Source: Nitrospira japonica
Lineage (GTDB): Bacteria; Nitrospirota; Nitrospiria; Nitrospirales; Nitrospiraceae
Reading direction: 5' to 3'
DNA length: 64,000 nucleotides
NCBI RefSeq assembly: GCF_900169565.1
Contig: NZ_LT828648.1
Span: 434,001 to 498,000 of the forward strand
The notes under the pieces are model-generated. The model saw nothing but the letters and a program-made list of their open reading frames with translations. It did not search any database and was not told the origin of the DNA. Shown here piece by piece: positions 51,215-59,712 of this stretch; position 1 is the stretch's first letter; every line of letters begins with the position of its first letter. A program made the position numbers and the translations under genes.

Positions 51215-53095
51215 TTAACCCTGAGAAGGCTTGGGCCGGGCTAATTGCTCGAGGAGGATGGCGTCCAGGCGGGTTCTGGCTTGCTCATTCAGCCGATGGA
51301 GCTCGTCCCTGGCGGCAAGCGGATCGTCGAAGCTTCGATCGGATGGCGCGATGGGTGCCAGCGTAAATATCTTCAGAAGTGCAGAACGGGGCACGGCGGG
51401 TTTGGCCTTCCACGGGTTGTAGAGCGGATCGCCGAACAGCACCATGCGCCAGCTGACCCATCGGCTGGTCAAGTAATACGCATCGGCCAGGGAGTACTGT
51501 CCGGTCATCATGAGAGAGACGAATTCCAGAGGTTCCGGGAACGAGTCGAGATACGGCTCACCCACGGAGCCGAGCGTGGCGGCAATACCCCGTTCCAGGG
51601 CGTTCTTGCACCATCCCGATTCCGAAGAGTTGTGAATGCTGACGGCTTCAGCGGATGCCATATGGTAACCGATTGCGCCAGGCCGGAAGGCGAATGCATC
51701 CTCGTACTGCCGCAGACGATACCACCCGACGTAAAGGGCCACATCCGGAGCGTCACCCGGACGCTGAAACCTTGCCTCGGTATTCTCCAATACGGAGCGA
51801 TAGGGAGCCTGTCTATCCAGAAAGTCTTTCAGGTCGCGCAGGCTTTGGTCATATCGGCCATAGGTGTCGGTCGGTTCCTTTGCCGGTAACCCGCGGGCAT
51901 CCAGGTAGATGGTCCCGATCAAACCCCGTGCTTCCGCTTCCATGGCTTGATCGACCAATTTCGACGCTTGGCCGGCCGTCGGGGCATCGAGCCGGCTGAC
52001 CATCAAGAGAGGGATCTCACGGCGAGACAGGACAGGCTTGGCGGCGGCATGGTAGTACCGGTTCGGCAGCCGCCAGGCGGCGCCGTAGTCGCCGACGTCG
52101 GACCACAACAGACTCAGCTCGCTGTCCACACTCGCATCGGCAAACTCCGTCGTCAAGCGCTTCAGCTCCAGCGCGGCCAACGCATAGACGCCATAGACCC
52201 CATAGACCTGCTCCACCTGCTGATACAATGCATCCCGGCCGGACGACACCGGAAGTCTCAGTGCTCCCAACAACAGTCGGAGCCCTTCCGCCTGCCGGGC
52301 CAGTCTTGGGCTCGCATGGGCTTCGACCGAGGACTCGGAGCTCTTGGGGAAACCCTGATCCAACTGCGTGACGCCGGCGATGCCCTGGTATTGCCCTACA
52401 ACCTCCTTCAACCGACTGTATGACTGCATGCGTGGGGTGGCATCGAGTGTTTTCACCCGTTTCAACGTCGCTTCGATCACGGTATCGACTTGGGCGAGAA
52501 ACGCAACGTTGCGTTCGAATTCCGGCACTCCCTGATTGCTCCTGTTATTGGACGGGGGCGCTTGGGGCATCCCGGCAATCTGCTGCGCGGCACGCTCCAC
52601 AGAGAGAAGTCGTGATCTGGCTTGCGTCAGCCGATCTCCCGCATCTTGCCTCCAGCGGCGCTCTTCCGTCGTCAGGAGCGGCGCGCTGACCCGCAACGGA
52701 ACCCCGTACACCGTGACGAGTACGCGGACGGACCGCTGAAAACTCTCCGCTTCAAGCATCCGTCGCAGCGGAAGCACCAGCTGTCGCTCGTACGCTTCCC
52801 AGGTCATGGTGTCGTCCTTGGAAAGATCGAGGCCGGCAATATGTTTTACGGGGATACCCCGACGCATGGCATAGTGGCGGGCAACCGCTAAACTGTCCTC
52901 ACTGTTGCGGTTCGCAACGATCACGACTTGGCTCGGGGCAAGTTCACCCCATGCCGGCACAACGGCCATTCCCCAGAGCGCCATACAACAAAGCAGCCAT
53001 CTGAGAACCCCCCGACCGACGGCTTTCTCCTGTTTATCATCGTGCGCGTGAACTCCATCCCGGCCGAAGGTCTCATGAAGCCATGTCTCGATCAT
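51215..53095 (-). CDS. TIGR03790 family protein
   Basis: A 626-residue exported protein with a hydrophobic start (LLCCMALWGMAVVPAWG, about 35-51), so the mature part is periplasmic or outer-surface. Signatures: VVIVANRNSEDSLAVARHYA, RGIPVKHIAGL, VRVLVTVYGVPLRV, and late AIGYHMASAEAVSIHNSS and LTSRWVSWRMVLFGDPLYNP. That is the uncharacterised TIGR03790 family. The N-terminal 34 residues are long and basic; a GTG at 53053 may be the real start. Confidence 0.8.
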   Translation of the reverse strand: MIETWLHETFGRDGVHAHDDKQEKAVGRGVLRWLLCCMALWGMAVVPAWGELAPSQVVIVANRNSEDSLAVARHYAMRRGIPVKHIAGLDLSKDDTMTWEAYERQLVLPLRRMLEAESFQRSVRVLVTVYGVPLRVSAPLLTTEERRWRQDAGDRLTQARSRLLSVERAAQQIAGMPQAPPSNNRSNQGVPEFERNVAFLAQVDTVIEATLKRVKTLDATPRMQSYSRLKEVVGQYQGIAGVTQLDQGFPKSSESSVEAHASPRLARQAEGLRLLLGALRLPVSSGRDALYQQVEQVYGVYGVYALAALELKRLTTEFADASVDSELSLLWSDVGDYGAAWRLPNRYYHAAAKPVLSRREIPLLMVSRLDAPTAGQASKLVDQAMEAEARGLIGTIYLDARGLPAKEPTDTYGRYDQSLRDLKDFLDRQAPYRSVLENTEARFQRPGDAPDVALYVGWYRLRQYEDAFAFRPGAIGYHMASAEAVSIHNSSESGWCKNALERGIAATLGSVGEPYLDSFPEPLEFVSLMMTGQYSLADAYYLTSRWVSWRMVLFGDPLYNPWKAKPAVPRSALLKIFTLAPIAPSDRSFDDPLAARDELHRLNEQARTRLDAILLEQLARPKPSQG

Positions 53096-53192
53096 GTGGG
53101 TTTTACACTCATGTAATCACTGGGTAACCACGAAGCAACATTATAGCGATACAGTTTGTGCAATCACATTATCAATCAAGGAGGAGAGGATC

Positions 53193-53576
53193 ATGGTCAC
53201 CGTTGGACAATTGATGAAGCAGGATCTTGTCACCGTCGACACAGGCACCTCTGTCGTCGAGGCGGCCAAGTTGATGAAGGCTTGCAACGTCGGCAGCGTG
53301 CTCGTCTCTCAAGAGAACCGCATTGTCGGTATCGTCACCGAATCGGACGTCGTCAGAAAATTCGTCGGCGTCGATCGCGTCGCGTACTTCACCCCCGTTG
53401 AGTCGATCATGAGTAGTCCCGTGTTGGGCATCGAAGCACGCAGGCCGATTACGGAGGCGGCCGACCTCATGAACAAGCACCGCACCCGCCATCTGGGCGT
53501 CACGAAGGCCGGCGCCATCGTCGGCGTCGTGTCCGTGCGAGATTTCCTCCAGCCGGTGGCCGTCGACGACTTCTAG
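53193..53576 (+). CDS. Two-CBS-domain protein
   Basis: A 127-residue stand-alone CBS pair: MVTVGQLMKQDLVTVDTGTS with SVLVSQENRIVGIVTESDVV, then SPVLGIEARRPITEAADLMN with HLGVTKAGAIVGVVSVRDFL. Such Bateman modules bind adenine nucleotides and act as energy sensors, usually with a partner protein, unknown here. AAGGAGGAGAGGATC precedes the ATG. An additional CBS protein with PilZ lies at 58939. Confidence 0.9.
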   Translation: MVTVGQLMKQDLVTVDTGTSVVEAAKLMKACNVGSVLVSQENRIVGIVTESDVVRKFVGVDRVAYFTPVESIMSSPVLGIEARRPITEAADLMNKHRTRHLGVTKAGAIVGVVSVRDFLQPVAVDDF

Positions 53577-54700: not shown

Positions 54701-55354
54701 TTACTTGACCTTGGAGAAGTCTGCGTTGATTTTCGCTTCTTTGCCGTCCTGAAAATTGACGACGAACACCGATACGGCGTTGGGATCGAAACTCTCATAG
54801 GAGAACACGGCGGTAAACCGTGACCGATAGGCGGGACCGCTGCCTTCATTTTTTCTCCCGCGCTCGGCTTTCCCGATATCGATCGGCTTGATTCGTTTCG
54901 TGCCTTGCTGCATCTCGATCAATGCGCCTTCGGCGAAGTATTCGTCGTCGCCGCACAGCTGTACTTCGACTTCCATGTTCGGCATGTCGACGACCTTCTT
55001 GATGAATTCCTCCGGCATGCGGATTTCCGTCTTTCTCTTCTTCGACTCGGATGCCTCCTGGCGGCCGAACGCCTCCAACCGATACCGCTTCGTCCGAAGC
55101 ACCGCGCTCGCTCCGCAGGAATCCTTTTCCGGATCGGCGCCGACCCTGGTCGCCATCGACGCTTGCTGGAGTACTTTTTTGACTTCTTCCGGAGAATTGG
55201 CCTTATCCATTGGCGCGCGGCCCGCTTCCAGAGCCTTTTGGGCATCCTCCATCGACAATTTCACGTCGATGGACCAGGCCGGTATCGCTCCAGCCAAGAC
55301 CATATAGGCGCAGGCGGTCAGTTTCAGCGCGTCTCCCCATCCTCGAACTGCCAT
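54701..55354 (-). CDS. Exported protein, unknown function
   Basis: A 217-residue protein with a signal peptide (MAVRGWGDALKLTACAYMVL, ending at AWS). The middle is helical (MEDAQKALEAGRAPMDKANS; SPEEVKKVLQQASMATRVG), the C-terminal half beta-rich (FTAVFSYESFDPNAVSVFVV). Two Cys in the mature form. No family recognised. The ATG at 55354 follows CTGGAGGACCTC, which decides against the longer frame to 55474. Confidence 0.72.
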   Translation of the reverse strand: MAVRGWGDALKLTACAYMVLAGAIPAWSIDVKLSMEDAQKALEAGRAPMDKANSPEEVKKVLQQASMATRVGADPEKDSCGASAVLRTKRYRLEAFGRQEASESKKRKTEIRMPEEFIKKVVDMPNMEVEVQLCGDDEYFAEGALIEMQQGTKRIKPIDIGKAERGRKNEGSGPAYRSRFTAVFSYESFDPNAVSVFVVNFQDGKEAKINADFSKVK

Positions 55355-55449
55355 GAGGTCCTCCAGAAAGATGGCAAACAAGAGTCGGCATTGTACGGAA
55401 AGCCTTTCATCATTGCAATCCGCTGGCTGCCGATCGTCATCACCGCTGG

Positions 55450-56085
55450 CTAGTCCGGCGACATCCGAGCCCAATTTTCGTATGGCTTCTGCCGATATAT
55501 TTGCACGATATCCGCCGGCATCGGCACACCCGCTTGGCTCAGTAGACCATGGACCACGCGCAACGGCAACCCCACCACCGTGGTGAAGTCGCCGTCAAAC
55601 GATTCGATCAGTTCCACGCCGGGACCCTGAATGGAATAGGATCCGGCCTTACCCAGGCTGTCTCCGGTGGCCAGATATCGTTCGTGCGCATCGGCCTCGT
55701 ACGCTCTCATGCGGACCTGCGTCGTCTCCAGTTTCGTTTTGTCGAATCCTCGCGTCAGCGACACGACTGTCACGGCCGTGTGCACCTCATGCCGGCGTCC
55801 TGCCAACGCGCGCAATGTCCTGCGTGCGTCTTCCAGGTCATACGGCTTGCCCAGTACCGCCCCCTCCAACTCGATCAGCGTATCACTCCCGATGACGACG
55901 GCTTCCGGATCGATCGCCGCTATGGAGTGCGCTTTTCGTTTCGCAAAGAAGGACGCCAGTTCCGGCGCCGTTCGGCCGGCGATGATTTGCTCGTCGCAGA
56001 CGGGAGATCGAACGTCGAAGGTCAGGCCCAGCAAGGAGAGCAGCGTACGGCGCCTGGGCGATGTCGACGCGAGGACTACCCGCAT
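55450..56085 (-). CDS. maf: Maf family nucleoside triphosphate pyrophosphatase
   Basis: House-cleaning enzyme that hydrolyses non-canonical or specific nucleoside triphosphates. The 211-residue protein has the start LASTSPRRRTLLSLLGL, then VIGSDTLIELEGAVLGKPYD and TVVSLTRGF, closely following YhdE/YceF-type proteins; the Asp of SDTL and Lys of LGKP are catalytic in the family. Its start overlaps the dus stop by 10 bases. Confidence 0.9.
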   Translation of the reverse strand: MRVVLASTSPRRRTLLSLLGLTFDVRSPVCDEQIIAGRTAPELASFFAKRKAHSIAAIDPEAVVIGSDTLIELEGAVLGKPYDLEDARRTLRALAGRRHEVHTAVTVVSLTRGFDKTKLETTQVRMRAYEADAHERYLATGDSLGKAGSYSIQGPGVELIESFDGDFTTVVGLPLRVVHGLLSQAGVPMPADIVQIYRQKPYENWARMSPD

Positions 56086-57269
56086 CGGGAAGCCAGAGAA
56101 ACTGCCTCTTCGACTTCCGTATCGTCGGTGAGGACTTCGACACCGGCGGACCGAACGGCGGAAGCCCGGTCCAGGTGGGCCGCAAGCGCGGCCTTGACGT
56201 CGGCAAGGGAAGATACCTGAAACATGGCCGCCCTGAGCGCGGCGGCGCCTGGAAACCCTTTACAATACCAGCCGAGATGTTTGCGCATGTTTCGGAATCG
56301 ATCAGCGCCCCACTGCCGCTCGAACCAGCTCGCATGTTCAAGCATGAGATCGAATCGCACCGAGAAAGGGGGAGTCCATAACTGCGGCGCCGGCTGGGGA
56401 TCAAGACCGGCGACGAGGCTTGCACGACGAACCGCCTCTTTGTCGCGGAAGAGCCAGGGCGCTCCCAATGCGCCCCGGCCGATCAACACGCCGTCCACTC
56501 CCGTCTCCCGAACCCGGCACGCAGCTTCCGCAAGACTGTGAACGTCGCCGTTTCCAAACAAAAGCGTATCGGTACCCCGCACCACCTCGGCGGCCCGTGC
56601 AATGGCATGCCAGTCCGCCTGCCCCCGATACATTTGTTGCAAGGTCCGCCCATGCAGTGAGATTACGGCGGGGCGCTCGAGCAGCAGATGCTCGATCCAG
56701 CGGTCCACGATGACGGCGTCATAGCCAAGCCTGGTCTTGACCGACAACGGAATAGTCCGGCGGTGAATTGTCGAAGCGGATCGACACCGGTCACTCAACC
56801 GGCGAATGATTTCGGCCCGCGCTGACTTGATCCCCGCAGACTCCAGCGATTGGCCGGCCGCCCAATCCTCGATGCCCCGGCGGGCCGCACGCATCACCTG
56901 GCGGGCGAGATCGGGAGTCTTGATCAGGCCGGCGCCCGAACCGGACGACGCGACGTTTCGCGAAGGGCATCCCATGTTGATGTCCAATCCGTCGAATCCC
57001 AGTTCGCAGATCGCATGGGCTGCCTGATAGAACAATTCCGGATCTTTACCATAGAGTTGCGCCACGATCGGCCGCTCCAGCTCGCCGTACATCAGCGAGT
57101 CGAGCAGAAACTCCGGCCCCCGACACACGTCGTGAACGTGTGTAAACTCCGTATAGAGCACGTCCGGTTTTCCGTGAGAGGCGACCATATGACGAAACGC
57201 CGCATCGGTCACGCCGTCCATCGGAGAAAGTCCCAGAATCGGGCGCGGCAGGCTCAGCCAAAAACTCAT
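56076..57269 (-). CDS. dus: tRNA-dihydrouridine synthase
   Basis: FMN enzyme that reduces uridine in tRNA D-loops. The 397-residue protein starts LGLSPMDGVTDAAFRHMVAS, has the catalytic Cys in INMGCPSRNV, then SVKTRLGYD, VISLHGRTLQQMYRGQADW (FMN phosphate-binding His) and FGNGDVHS. The region after the catalytic loop carries a 40-residue insert (DWAAGQSLESAGIKSARAEI onward) compared with typical Dus. Overlaps both the upstream DUF692 gene (4 bases) and maf. Confidence 0.92.
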   Translation of the reverse strand: MSFWLSLPRPILGLSPMDGVTDAAFRHMVASHGKPDVLYTEFTHVHDVCRGPEFLLDSLMYGELERPIVAQLYGKDPELFYQAAHAICELGFDGLDINMGCPSRNVASSGSGAGLIKTPDLARQVMRAARRGIEDWAAGQSLESAGIKSARAEIIRRLSDRCRSASTIHRRTIPLSVKTRLGYDAVIVDRWIEHLLLERPAVISLHGRTLQQMYRGQADWHAIARAAEVVRGTDTLLFGNGDVHSLAEAACRVRETGVDGVLIGRGALGAPWLFRDKEAVRRASLVAGLDPQPAPQLWTPPFSVRFDLMLEHASWFERQWGADRFRNMRKHLGWYCKGFPGAAALRAAMFQVSSLADVKAALAAHLDRASAVRSAGVEVLTDDTEVEEAVSLASRCG

Positions 57270-58765
57270 CGTGTCAACTCTCCGTCCGTCTCGATAGCCG
57301 GCGACCGACGTTCGTTCGCGTCCGCGTAAGCCGATCGCAGCAGCGCGGCTTCGCGATCGGCGAGCGGAGACAACTGCGGCGCCCGCTCACAGACGAACTC
57401 CTGAAATCGCGAGATCTTCAGAAGAAAGAAATCATACGACTCTGATGCGACCCGAACGTCTCGAAACCACCACGGCACGAACTCGTCGAGCACGATGCCG
57501 GCCTCTGCAAGCAGCCGGCACGTGTCCGGGAACATATCCGTCAGTTGCCCGCCCCATCGAAGAATTTCGTTCGGCAAATACCCGGCGGTGTATCGCGCCA
57601 AGCCGGCACCGTCCTCCTGCACGGCTTGCCATTCGGGCCCGGATGGGCTCAGCAGGCCTGATGCCGTCCTCGCGTAGCGGACGTATTGCTTCTCCAATCC
57701 CTTCCGCTCCTGTTGCGTCACGGCCGATTGGCGGACGACCGATTCCGATCCCCCATCGTCCTGCCTCGTACGCCGTGGATCCCGCGTCATTGTGCTGGCG
57801 ACCTGGCCATGAAACCGCCGGTCGGCCAAGCGGAACTCATTGGCAATCAATGCGACGTCCTTGTTGTCCACTTCCAAGGCAACGGCACGAAGATGGCGGA
57901 GCTTGGGATGGGCCAACGTTTGTTCGAGCAGGTCCCACAATACTGACGGAATCTCGGCCTCATGGGCGTCGATCCATGCTGGATGCGCCGCGGCTGCATC
58001 GCTGACAACGTCCGCATCGCGCTCAGCCAGCCCGGCCACATGAATTTCCACTACACGCTCGAGCGGAAATTCATCGAGAAACCGCTCGACGAATTGGTCC
58101 AGCGGCCCATGCTGCCCGACGCTTCCATAACGATACACCGTCCAGAGATGCCCGATGTCCAGGACCAGGCCGCATGCAACACGGTCCGTCACCCTTCGAA
58201 AGAACTGGGGCACAGCCAGATCGCCCGCGGAAAAGTAGGTCAGCGGAGCCATCTCCAGCAGAAATAACGGAGAGCCATGCGGAGTCGTCTCCCAATGCAC
58301 ATCCAGCGCTCGCTGTACGAGGGCGATATTGTCCGCGACGACGTCCGCACTGGTTGCCGTATATAAAGGTGGGAGATAGGTGCCGAATGCGAACCCGCCC
58401 ATCTCTTTAGACGCACACTCATGGTTCAACCAGTGACTCTGAATGCTGTTGAGTTGCCGGACCGTCTCTTCCAGTCGTGTCTTGAGATACGGAGAAACCG
58501 GAAAGTCCGGCTGCGTGACCCAGAGCCCCTCACCGTGATATGCCAACGGCATGGCTGGTAACCGGCGTCGAACCTCTTCGAGCATGCCGGTCGTTGCCTG
58601 AAATAATTCGAGATAGGCCGGGTGGAGATCACAACCTTCCAGCTCGTCGAGGAGTGCAAAGAGATCGGGGCTGTAGCAATCCACTGACAAACCGACACCC
58701 AGGCTCGGTATGCGATCGACGCGGCGTTCAAATGCGCTCTGGGGGGAATGCGTAAGAATCATCAA
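57266..58765 (-). CDS. DUF692 (multinuclear iron oxidase) protein with C-terminal extension
   Basis: Residues 20-305 are a DUF692/MNIO TIM barrel, the family of MbnB and TglH that use two or three iron atoms to modify peptide cysteines. Likely iron ligands are all visible: His77 (AYHGEG), His115 (NHECAS), Glu171 (LEMAP), Asp203 and His206 (LDIGHLW), His242 (EIHVAG), Asp266 and His268 (DAH), Glu298 (ALEVD). Residues 350-490 are a separate helical domain (ARYTAGYLPNEILRWGGQL; WWFRDVRVASESYDFFLLK), perhaps a partner-type (DUF2063/HvfC-like) domain fused on. No short precursor peptide is obvious nearby. Starts the dus-maf operon. Confidence 0.82.
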   Translation of the reverse strand: MMILTHSPQSAFERRVDRIPSLGVGLSVDCYSPDLFALLDELEGCDLHPAYLELFQATTGMLEEVRRRLPAMPLAYHGEGLWVTQPDFPVSPYLKTRLEETVRQLNSIQSHWLNHECASKEMGGFAFGTYLPPLYTATSADVVADNIALVQRALDVHWETTPHGSPLFLLEMAPLTYFSAGDLAVPQFFRRVTDRVACGLVLDIGHLWTVYRYGSVGQHGPLDQFVERFLDEFPLERVVEIHVAGLAERDADVVSDAAAAHPAWIDAHEAEIPSVLWDLLEQTLAHPKLRHLRAVALEVDNKDVALIANEFRLADRRFHGQVASTMTRDPRRTRQDDGGSESVVRQSAVTQQERKGLEKQYVRYARTASGLLSPSGPEWQAVQEDGAGLARYTAGYLPNEILRWGGQLTDMFPDTCRLLAEAGIVLDEFVPWWFRDVRVASESYDFFLLKISRFQEFVCERAPQLSPLADREAALLRSAYADANERRSPAIETDGELTR

Positions 58766-58797: not shown

Positions 58798-58938
58798 TAG
58801 TCTAGTCTCCGAAGCAATTGTTTGACAAGGCAAGTCCGTCAATTCGAGAGGAAGTCCCTGTCTGCTATACTTGGCGTACGCCGACGGGTAGACGCCCTCA
58901 CGAATCGCGTGGAACGGCTCAAGAGAGGGTGGTGGGCG

Positions 58939-59712
58939 ATGCCCGGCCCCGAAGAACGACCCCCGACGACAACATCAACCCAATCAACTGTGGTCGCGCA
59001 TATGATGACACCAGGAGTCGTGCAGGTTCCGGGCGATGTGTCCGTCAGCGAGGCCGCGCTGATGCTGGAGCGCGAACAGGCCCCTTGTCTTCTGGTCAAG
59101 GATACGGATGACCAATTCGGCGTCATGACGCCGCACGATATCGTCAAGAAAGTCGTGGCCCAAGGACTCGAGCCGCATGAGATCGAAGTGCGGACCATCA
59201 TGACCCGTCCGGTTCAATTCATCGAATACGACCAGGCGCTCGAAGAAGCCGCAACCATCATGGTGGCAACCGGAGCCTCACTGTTGATCGTCACGAAGCA
59301 GAACCAGCCGGTAGGAGTATTGACCGCTCATAACCTGATGCTCACACCTCCCCGTCGGGCCACGCAGATTCCGACGGTCATCACCGTGATGGGGGATGAC
59401 CCTTCCCTGCAGCACGCGCACAATGCCGTCATTTCGCAGTTAAGCCACCTCGGTTCCTTGGTGCACTCGAAGACGCATATCGCCACGAAGAGCCGCGTCG
59501 TGCTCGCCTTTTCATTGCCGGGTCAGAATACGCCATTGACCATTCACGGAAAGGTGTTGAGCAGCGGCGCGTCCTCCGTCCCGCCGATCGAGCCTTCTGG
59601 GGAAGGGATGAGCGCATCCGAAATCCAGTTCATTGATCCCTCGGACGCCAACCTTGCCCGCCTGAAAGCGTGGGCGCTCCAGGCCTTGCCGGCCTCCTCA
59701 CAATCCGAATAG
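58939..59712 (+). CDS. CBS pair + PilZ-like domain protein
   Basis: A 257-residue cytoplasmic protein. Residues 20-135 form two CBS domains (MMTPGVVQVPGDVSVSEAAL; TIMTRPVQFIEYDQALEEAA). The C-terminal part (150-250) has strands such as SRVVLAFSLPGQNTPLTIHG and a late IQFIDPSDANLARLKAWA, the end of PilZ domains, but the RxxxR motif is not clear. It may join nucleotide sensing to cyclic di-GMP. Start at 58939 follows GGTGGTGGGCG. Confidence 0.75.
   Translation: MPGPEERPPTTTSTQSTVVAHMMTPGVVQVPGDVSVSEAALMLEREQAPCLLVKDTDDQFGVMTPHDIVKKVVAQGLEPHEIEVRTIMTRPVQFIEYDQALEEAATIMVATGASLLIVTKQNQPVGVLTAHNLMLTPPRRATQIPTVITVMGDDPSLQHAHNAVISQLSHLGSLVHSKTHIATKSRVVLAFSLPGQNTPLTIHGKVLSSGASSVPPIEPSGEGMSASEIQFIDPSDANLARLKAWALQALPASSQSE

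Follow-up and report, generated by a model that had tools for sequence, protein, structure and literature searches.

The gene described here lies on the reverse strand of a 64,000-nucleotide stretch of Nitrospira japonica DNA, which we call the window. Its open reading frame (57266-58765, -), correctly located by the original prediction, begins with TTG, and an ATG stands one codon further in, at 58762. Homologues begin near this ATG and thus favour it as the start, and we number the 498 residues of the protein from its methionine (57266..58762, -). The gene is genuine, and it is present as a single copy in the 4.08 Mb one-contig genome. It encodes a MNIO barrel and a putative partner domain on one chain, comprising a MNIO/DUF692 (PF05114) TIM barrel (residues 18-325; 57788..58711, -), a variable linker (residues 326-349; 57716..57787, -) and an all-helical domain (residues 350-486; 57305..57715, -).

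The stop codon of the fusion gene is overlapped by 4 nt (ATGA) with the ATG of dus, the tRNA-dihydrouridine synthase gene (56076..57269, -), which in turn overlaps maf, a nucleotide pyrophosphatase gene (55450..56085, -). Matches of the Dus protein to its Pfam and NCBIfam models are interrupted by an insert of about 36 residues (133-169), so that each falls into two stretches. Downstream of maf, the gene at 54701-55369 (-) encodes a secreted protein with a signal peptide and no Pfam or NCBIfam family, and two Cys-Gly motifs (DPCG and CGDD) occur in the sequences of it that were inspected. Two genes on the forward strand (53094-53576 and 58822-59712) encode proteins of one BLAST cluster and lie on either side of the dus-maf operon, the second encoding CBS domains; a TIGR03790-family protein (247.7 bits) is encoded at 51215-53095 (-).

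In the Pfam search, PF05114 (MbnB_TglH_ChrH) matched residues 46-302 with 67.1 bits against a cut-off of 25 (E 1.9e-18), and the NCBIfam BufB, ApyH and HvfB models matched the protein well under their own cut-offs. A full-length AlphaFold2 model built from a 50-sequence alignment reached a pLDDT of 90.6 and a pTM of 0.91. Comparison of the modelled barrel with the PDB placed it closest to TglH (Z 25.6), MbnB (Z 22-24, up to 24.2) and 3BWW (Z 20.5), ahead of any other family (best Z 16.5); the same barrel fold is seen in this comparison in endonuclease IV and sugar isomerases. The barrel profile also aligned with that of BufB (hhalign, E 6e-18). The Pfam match and the modelled helices together bear out the predicted combination of a DUF692 barrel with an extra C-terminal helical domain on one chain.

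The iron site of TglH is formed by His71, His107, Glu151, Asp184, His216 and Glu258 for Fe1 and Fe2 and by Asp184, Asn187, Asp229 and His231 for Fe3 (PMC10880893), and the general base of MbnB is Asp240 (PMC8888699). In the alignment, the invariant His76 (58535..58537, -) corresponds to TglH His71, Glu170 (58253..58255, -) to Glu151, Asp202 of an Asp202-Ile-Gly-His205 motif (58148..58159, -) to Asp184, His241 (58040..58042, -) to His216, Asp265-x-His267 (57962..57970, -) to Asp229 and His231, and Glu297-x-Asp299 (57866..57874, -) to Glu258 and the MbnB general base. Seven of the nine TglH iron ligands are kept in the fusion protein. At the two remaining positions Glu115, part of a Glu115-Cys116 pair (58415..58420, -) of which both residues are invariant (67/67), takes the place of His107, and His205 that of Asn187, in all 67 fusion homologues, whereas the same two columns hold His and Asn in 33/33 bufferin MNIOs (BufB). 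The claim that the barrel carries all metal ligands is contradicted by these fixed exchanges. All nine ligand columns and Asp299 are nevertheless invariant within the 67 homologues, which span two classes.

The register of Glu115 follows from an ungapped eight-residue spacing between the ligand and a conserved Gly (SEH-x7-G in BufB, SDH-x7-G in 3BWW and NHE-x7-G in the fusion), whereas the gap introduced by hhalign would set the invariant Cys116 at the TglH His107 position. The choice between Glu115 and Cys116 is not beyond doubt, and the alignments indicate that the histidine is lost either way. By its profile match the protein is a PF05114 homologue, but we place it in no characterised MNIO type because it has seven of the nine canonical iron ligands, with Glu115 for His and His205 for Asn. 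With two ligand exchanges fixed, the enzyme may catalyse something other than thiooxazole formation; a different metal, a different chemistry or the loss of any chemistry could lie behind the exchanges.

Low pLDDT around residues 331-340 marks the linker, after which the AlphaFold2 model is all helical (helices 350-367, 376-384, 386-402, 412-420, 425-432, 445-460 and 462-483); modelled alone, the C-terminal domain reached a pLDDT of 91. Pfam and PDB sequence searches with this domain gave no credible match, and PF09836 matched none of 50 C-terminal domain sequences. When 112 chains drawn by Foldseek from a library of 350,542 were re-aligned, the two best PDB matches were the TglI chains 8hi7_A and 8hci_A over TglI residues 1-157, with weak scores (Z 6.0 and 5.5, rmsd 6.0-6.2 over 124-126 residues); for helical domains a Z below about 13 is no proof. 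In Foldseek itself, with the domain as query, 8hi7_A ranked second (E 3.4). Comparison with known partners by structure prediction, as had been proposed, therefore placed TglI on top and found no unrelated known fold; MbnC and 3DEE were not among the structural matches, which excludes neither. The domain profile aligned co-linearly with DUF2063 over its whole length in hhalign (P 0.010 and 0.027, which by usual criteria falls short of significance), and a shallower alignment covered the first third of the domain only (P 0.035).

The structural scores would not suffice by themselves, but the co-linear DUF2063 alignment adds weight to them, and so does the identity of the match: no DALI homologue of the TglI N-terminal domain was reported by the authors of that structure (PMC10880893), which makes it an unlikely fold to meet by chance, and TglI is the very partner of the TglH barrel. 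The helical domain of TglI docks on TglH and its RRE binds the peptide (PMC10880893); PesI is similar to TglI in behaviour (PMC13060819), and relatives of the TglI N-terminal domain define the PME-type 2 partners, a type already known to include short proteins without an RRE (PMC12452194). The C-terminal domain model contains neither an RRE nor beta strands, so the RRE part of TglI is missing. On these models the C-terminal domain is likely, if on weak scores, partner-derived, and by the same weakly scored match the fusion would retain a counterpart of the docking helical domain of TglI and none of the peptide-binding RRE. Of the two readings offered by the original prediction, a self-contained partner is the better supported, with TglI chains as the top two PDB matches, but these scores are weak.

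A possible unfused form occurs in a genome of the same class but another family (G317), where a 314-aa barrel ends at the linker position and the domain continues in another frame. The domain ORF (L130:8889-9357) has its own ATG behind GGAG and overlaps the end of the barrel ORF by about 31 nt; in fused members, 28-47 residues lie between residues 318 and 356. The two ORFs may go back to an ancestor with separate genes or may have arisen when a fused gene later broke apart, and a frameshift in a MAG could also account for them.

Matches were found in 69 of 100 relatives, and the C-terminal domain in 183 of the 270 genomes of the class, almost always within a frame of about 500 aa and in one copy each among the class genomes listed. 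Some members of the order, genus g24 for example, are without it. Full-length homologues are also present in a second class (f22). The gene tree holds families together (support 1.0 for f22, 0.89 for f3 and 0.90 for f1-f3), which suggests that the fusion has been inherited vertically, and within the Nitrospira family it ranks as near-core. The plasmid collection yielded no full-length fusion; relatives there match in the barrel only, and all six annotated loci among the nine fetched are bufferin clusters. The literature searched contains no description of the fusion, which does not by itself prove novelty, and no paper combining DUF692 with Nitrospira.

Gene order in the Nitrospira family runs fusion, dus, maf and secreted protein, and of 42 loci surveyed, 30 have dus next to the fusion. 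In f3, a different family of the same order, the fusion gene comes after gltD, and in the second class its neighbours include a lipoprotein gene and chemotaxis genes. The predicted dus-maf operon is thus real as an overlapping run in the window and specific to the Nitrospira family, but absent from these two lineages, and because neighbours differ by lineage the link is not a general one. The association with tRNA and nucleotide hygiene is weakened by the same changes.

Across 60 loci, no precursor ORF was conserved within 2.5 kb on either side of the fusion, in agreement with the original prediction that none was to be seen. The small ORFs that cluster around the gene resemble mere shadows of larger conserved genes, in antisense or in a shifted frame. 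With its signal peptide and two Cys-Gly motifs, the secreted protein encoded after maf was a candidate substrate, but its presence in 91 of 100 relatives, many of them without the fusion, speaks against a dedicated partner. The Nitrospira japonica genome holds no other PF05114 protein, no PF09836 (DUF2063) and no PF10048 (DUF2282). Of 296 genomes of the phylum, 22 encode DUF2063 proteins; those loci that were inspected are standard bufferin clusters, and in the surveyed loci they were never beside the fusion; the neighbourhood survey thus found no orthologue next to a standard precursor-partner pair. In some Nitrospira relatives, complete bufferin clusters (DUF2282, MNIO, DUF2063 and DoxX; L091, L094 and L099) lie away from the fusion. 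The other suggestion, that of a new class acting on a different substrate, agrees with the fixed ligand exchanges and with the lack of both RRE and precursor, although the analysis found no substrate.

The explanation we favour, and hold to be moderately probable, is that a single chain forms a MNIO holoenzyme whose iron site is altered and whose substrate is unlinked. The N-terminal DUF692 barrel would be the oxidase, and the C-terminal helical domain would replace the docking half, that is the N-terminal helical domain, of a TglI- or DUF2063-type partner. In known systems such a partner must sit on the barrel for the catalytic cavity to be complete and, in the case of HvfBC, for the irons to attain their active state. 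HvfC is required for the mixed-valent cluster, and an engineered HvfB-HvfC fusion is highly active, above the co-expressed pair (PMC13419390). The substrate would most likely be a residue, with Cys as the superfamily default, in a peptide or protein that the cavity recognises directly; a target encoded elsewhere is suggested because the RRE is absent, no precursor lies nearby and the neighbourhood is not stable. Iron loading, oxidase activity and the unlinked substrate are what we infer, and the target is perhaps a conserved protein. Tentatively, and with rather less than even confidence, we extend this to a housekeeping subfamily of MNIOs, inherited vertically in Nitrospirota and equipped with a built-in partner and a Glu/His-modified iron site, which would oxidise a conserved cellular protein and not a RiPP.

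A conventional RiPP maturase with its precursor in trans, a short Cys-containing, possibly metal-binding peptide encoded elsewhere on the chromosome, seems to us rather unlikely. The characterised MNIOs described act on RiPP precursors (PMC12452194, PMC13174530), and the strong conservation of the fusion and its ligands would lead one to expect a dedicated substrate. The protein, however, has no RRE, the 60 loci offered no conserved precursor-like ORF within 2.5 kb, the genome is without DUF2282, and the context varies by lineage, unlike that of RiPP clusters. Improbable, in our judgement, is a metal enzyme of the same superfamily that acts together with Dus and Maf on a non-peptide substrate, such as a nucleotide or tRNA component bound by the helical domain: the overlapping dus-maf operon across most of the Nitrospira family and the barrel fold common to endonuclease IV and sugar isomerases speak for it, but the setting is missing in other families and the second class, and fold and ligands are nearest to TglH and MbnB by a clear margin (Z 20-26 versus 16.5). 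A pseudoenzyme or regulator, with a MNIO-like barrel that the ligand exchanges have deprived of oxidase chemistry, would be in keeping with the two positions altered in all members and with the precedent of PesX, which is without iron-binding residues and only competes for a partner (PMC13060819), but it is very doubtful given that two classes share seven ligands and the general-base Asp without variation, that the replacing Glu and His can themselves bind metal, and that the genome has no other MNIO to regulate.

MNIOs are known as tools of clusters that make peptide natural products, and the majority depend on a separate partner. If the favoured one-chain holoenzyme is correct, a near-core single-chain MNIO with a changed iron site would suggest that the docking domain of the partner, and not the peptide-gripping RRE, is the indispensable part. 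It would also hint that chemolithotrophic bacteria use MNIO chemistry outside RiPP clusters and, should the more tentative extension hold as well, that a MNIO can have a core physiological protein as its target. As a single chain, the protein should be convenient for structural and spectroscopic work.

Among characterised systems, TglHI of Pseudomonas syringae (8hi7/8hci) resembles the fusion in the barrel fold (Z 25.6) and in seven of nine ligands, and residues 1-157 of its TglI are the best, though weakly scored, match to the helical domain. It differs in having two chains instead of one, and the fusion lacks the RRE, has Glu for His107 and His for Asn187, and has no tglA-type precursor nearby. 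BufBC, a MNIO with a DUF2063-RRE partner, shares a homologous barrel (hhalign E 6e-18) and is encoded, at loci of its own, by some genomes that also carry the fusion, but BufB keeps the His and Asn ligands (33/33), its separate partner carries both the DUF2063 signature and the RRE, and the DUF2282 precursor and DoxX adjoin. The methanobactin maturase MbnBC has the barrel fold (Z 22-24) and the Glu-x-Asp general-base motif in common with the fusion, whereas MbnC is not among the matches to the helical domain and no MbnA-like peptide was seen near the fusion. Natural MNIO fusions are known in MovX (MNIO and winged helix), which needs no separate partner, and in PflD (MNIO-nitroreductase); descriptions give the fused part as a winged helix in the first and a nitroreductase in the second, and not as a TglI-type helical domain. 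Identical domain order on one chain is found in the engineered HvfB-HvfC fusion (PMC13419390), in which a pre-formed active complex is likewise expected, but that protein is man-made, contains full-length HvfC and has the canonical ligands, unlike the natural fusion.
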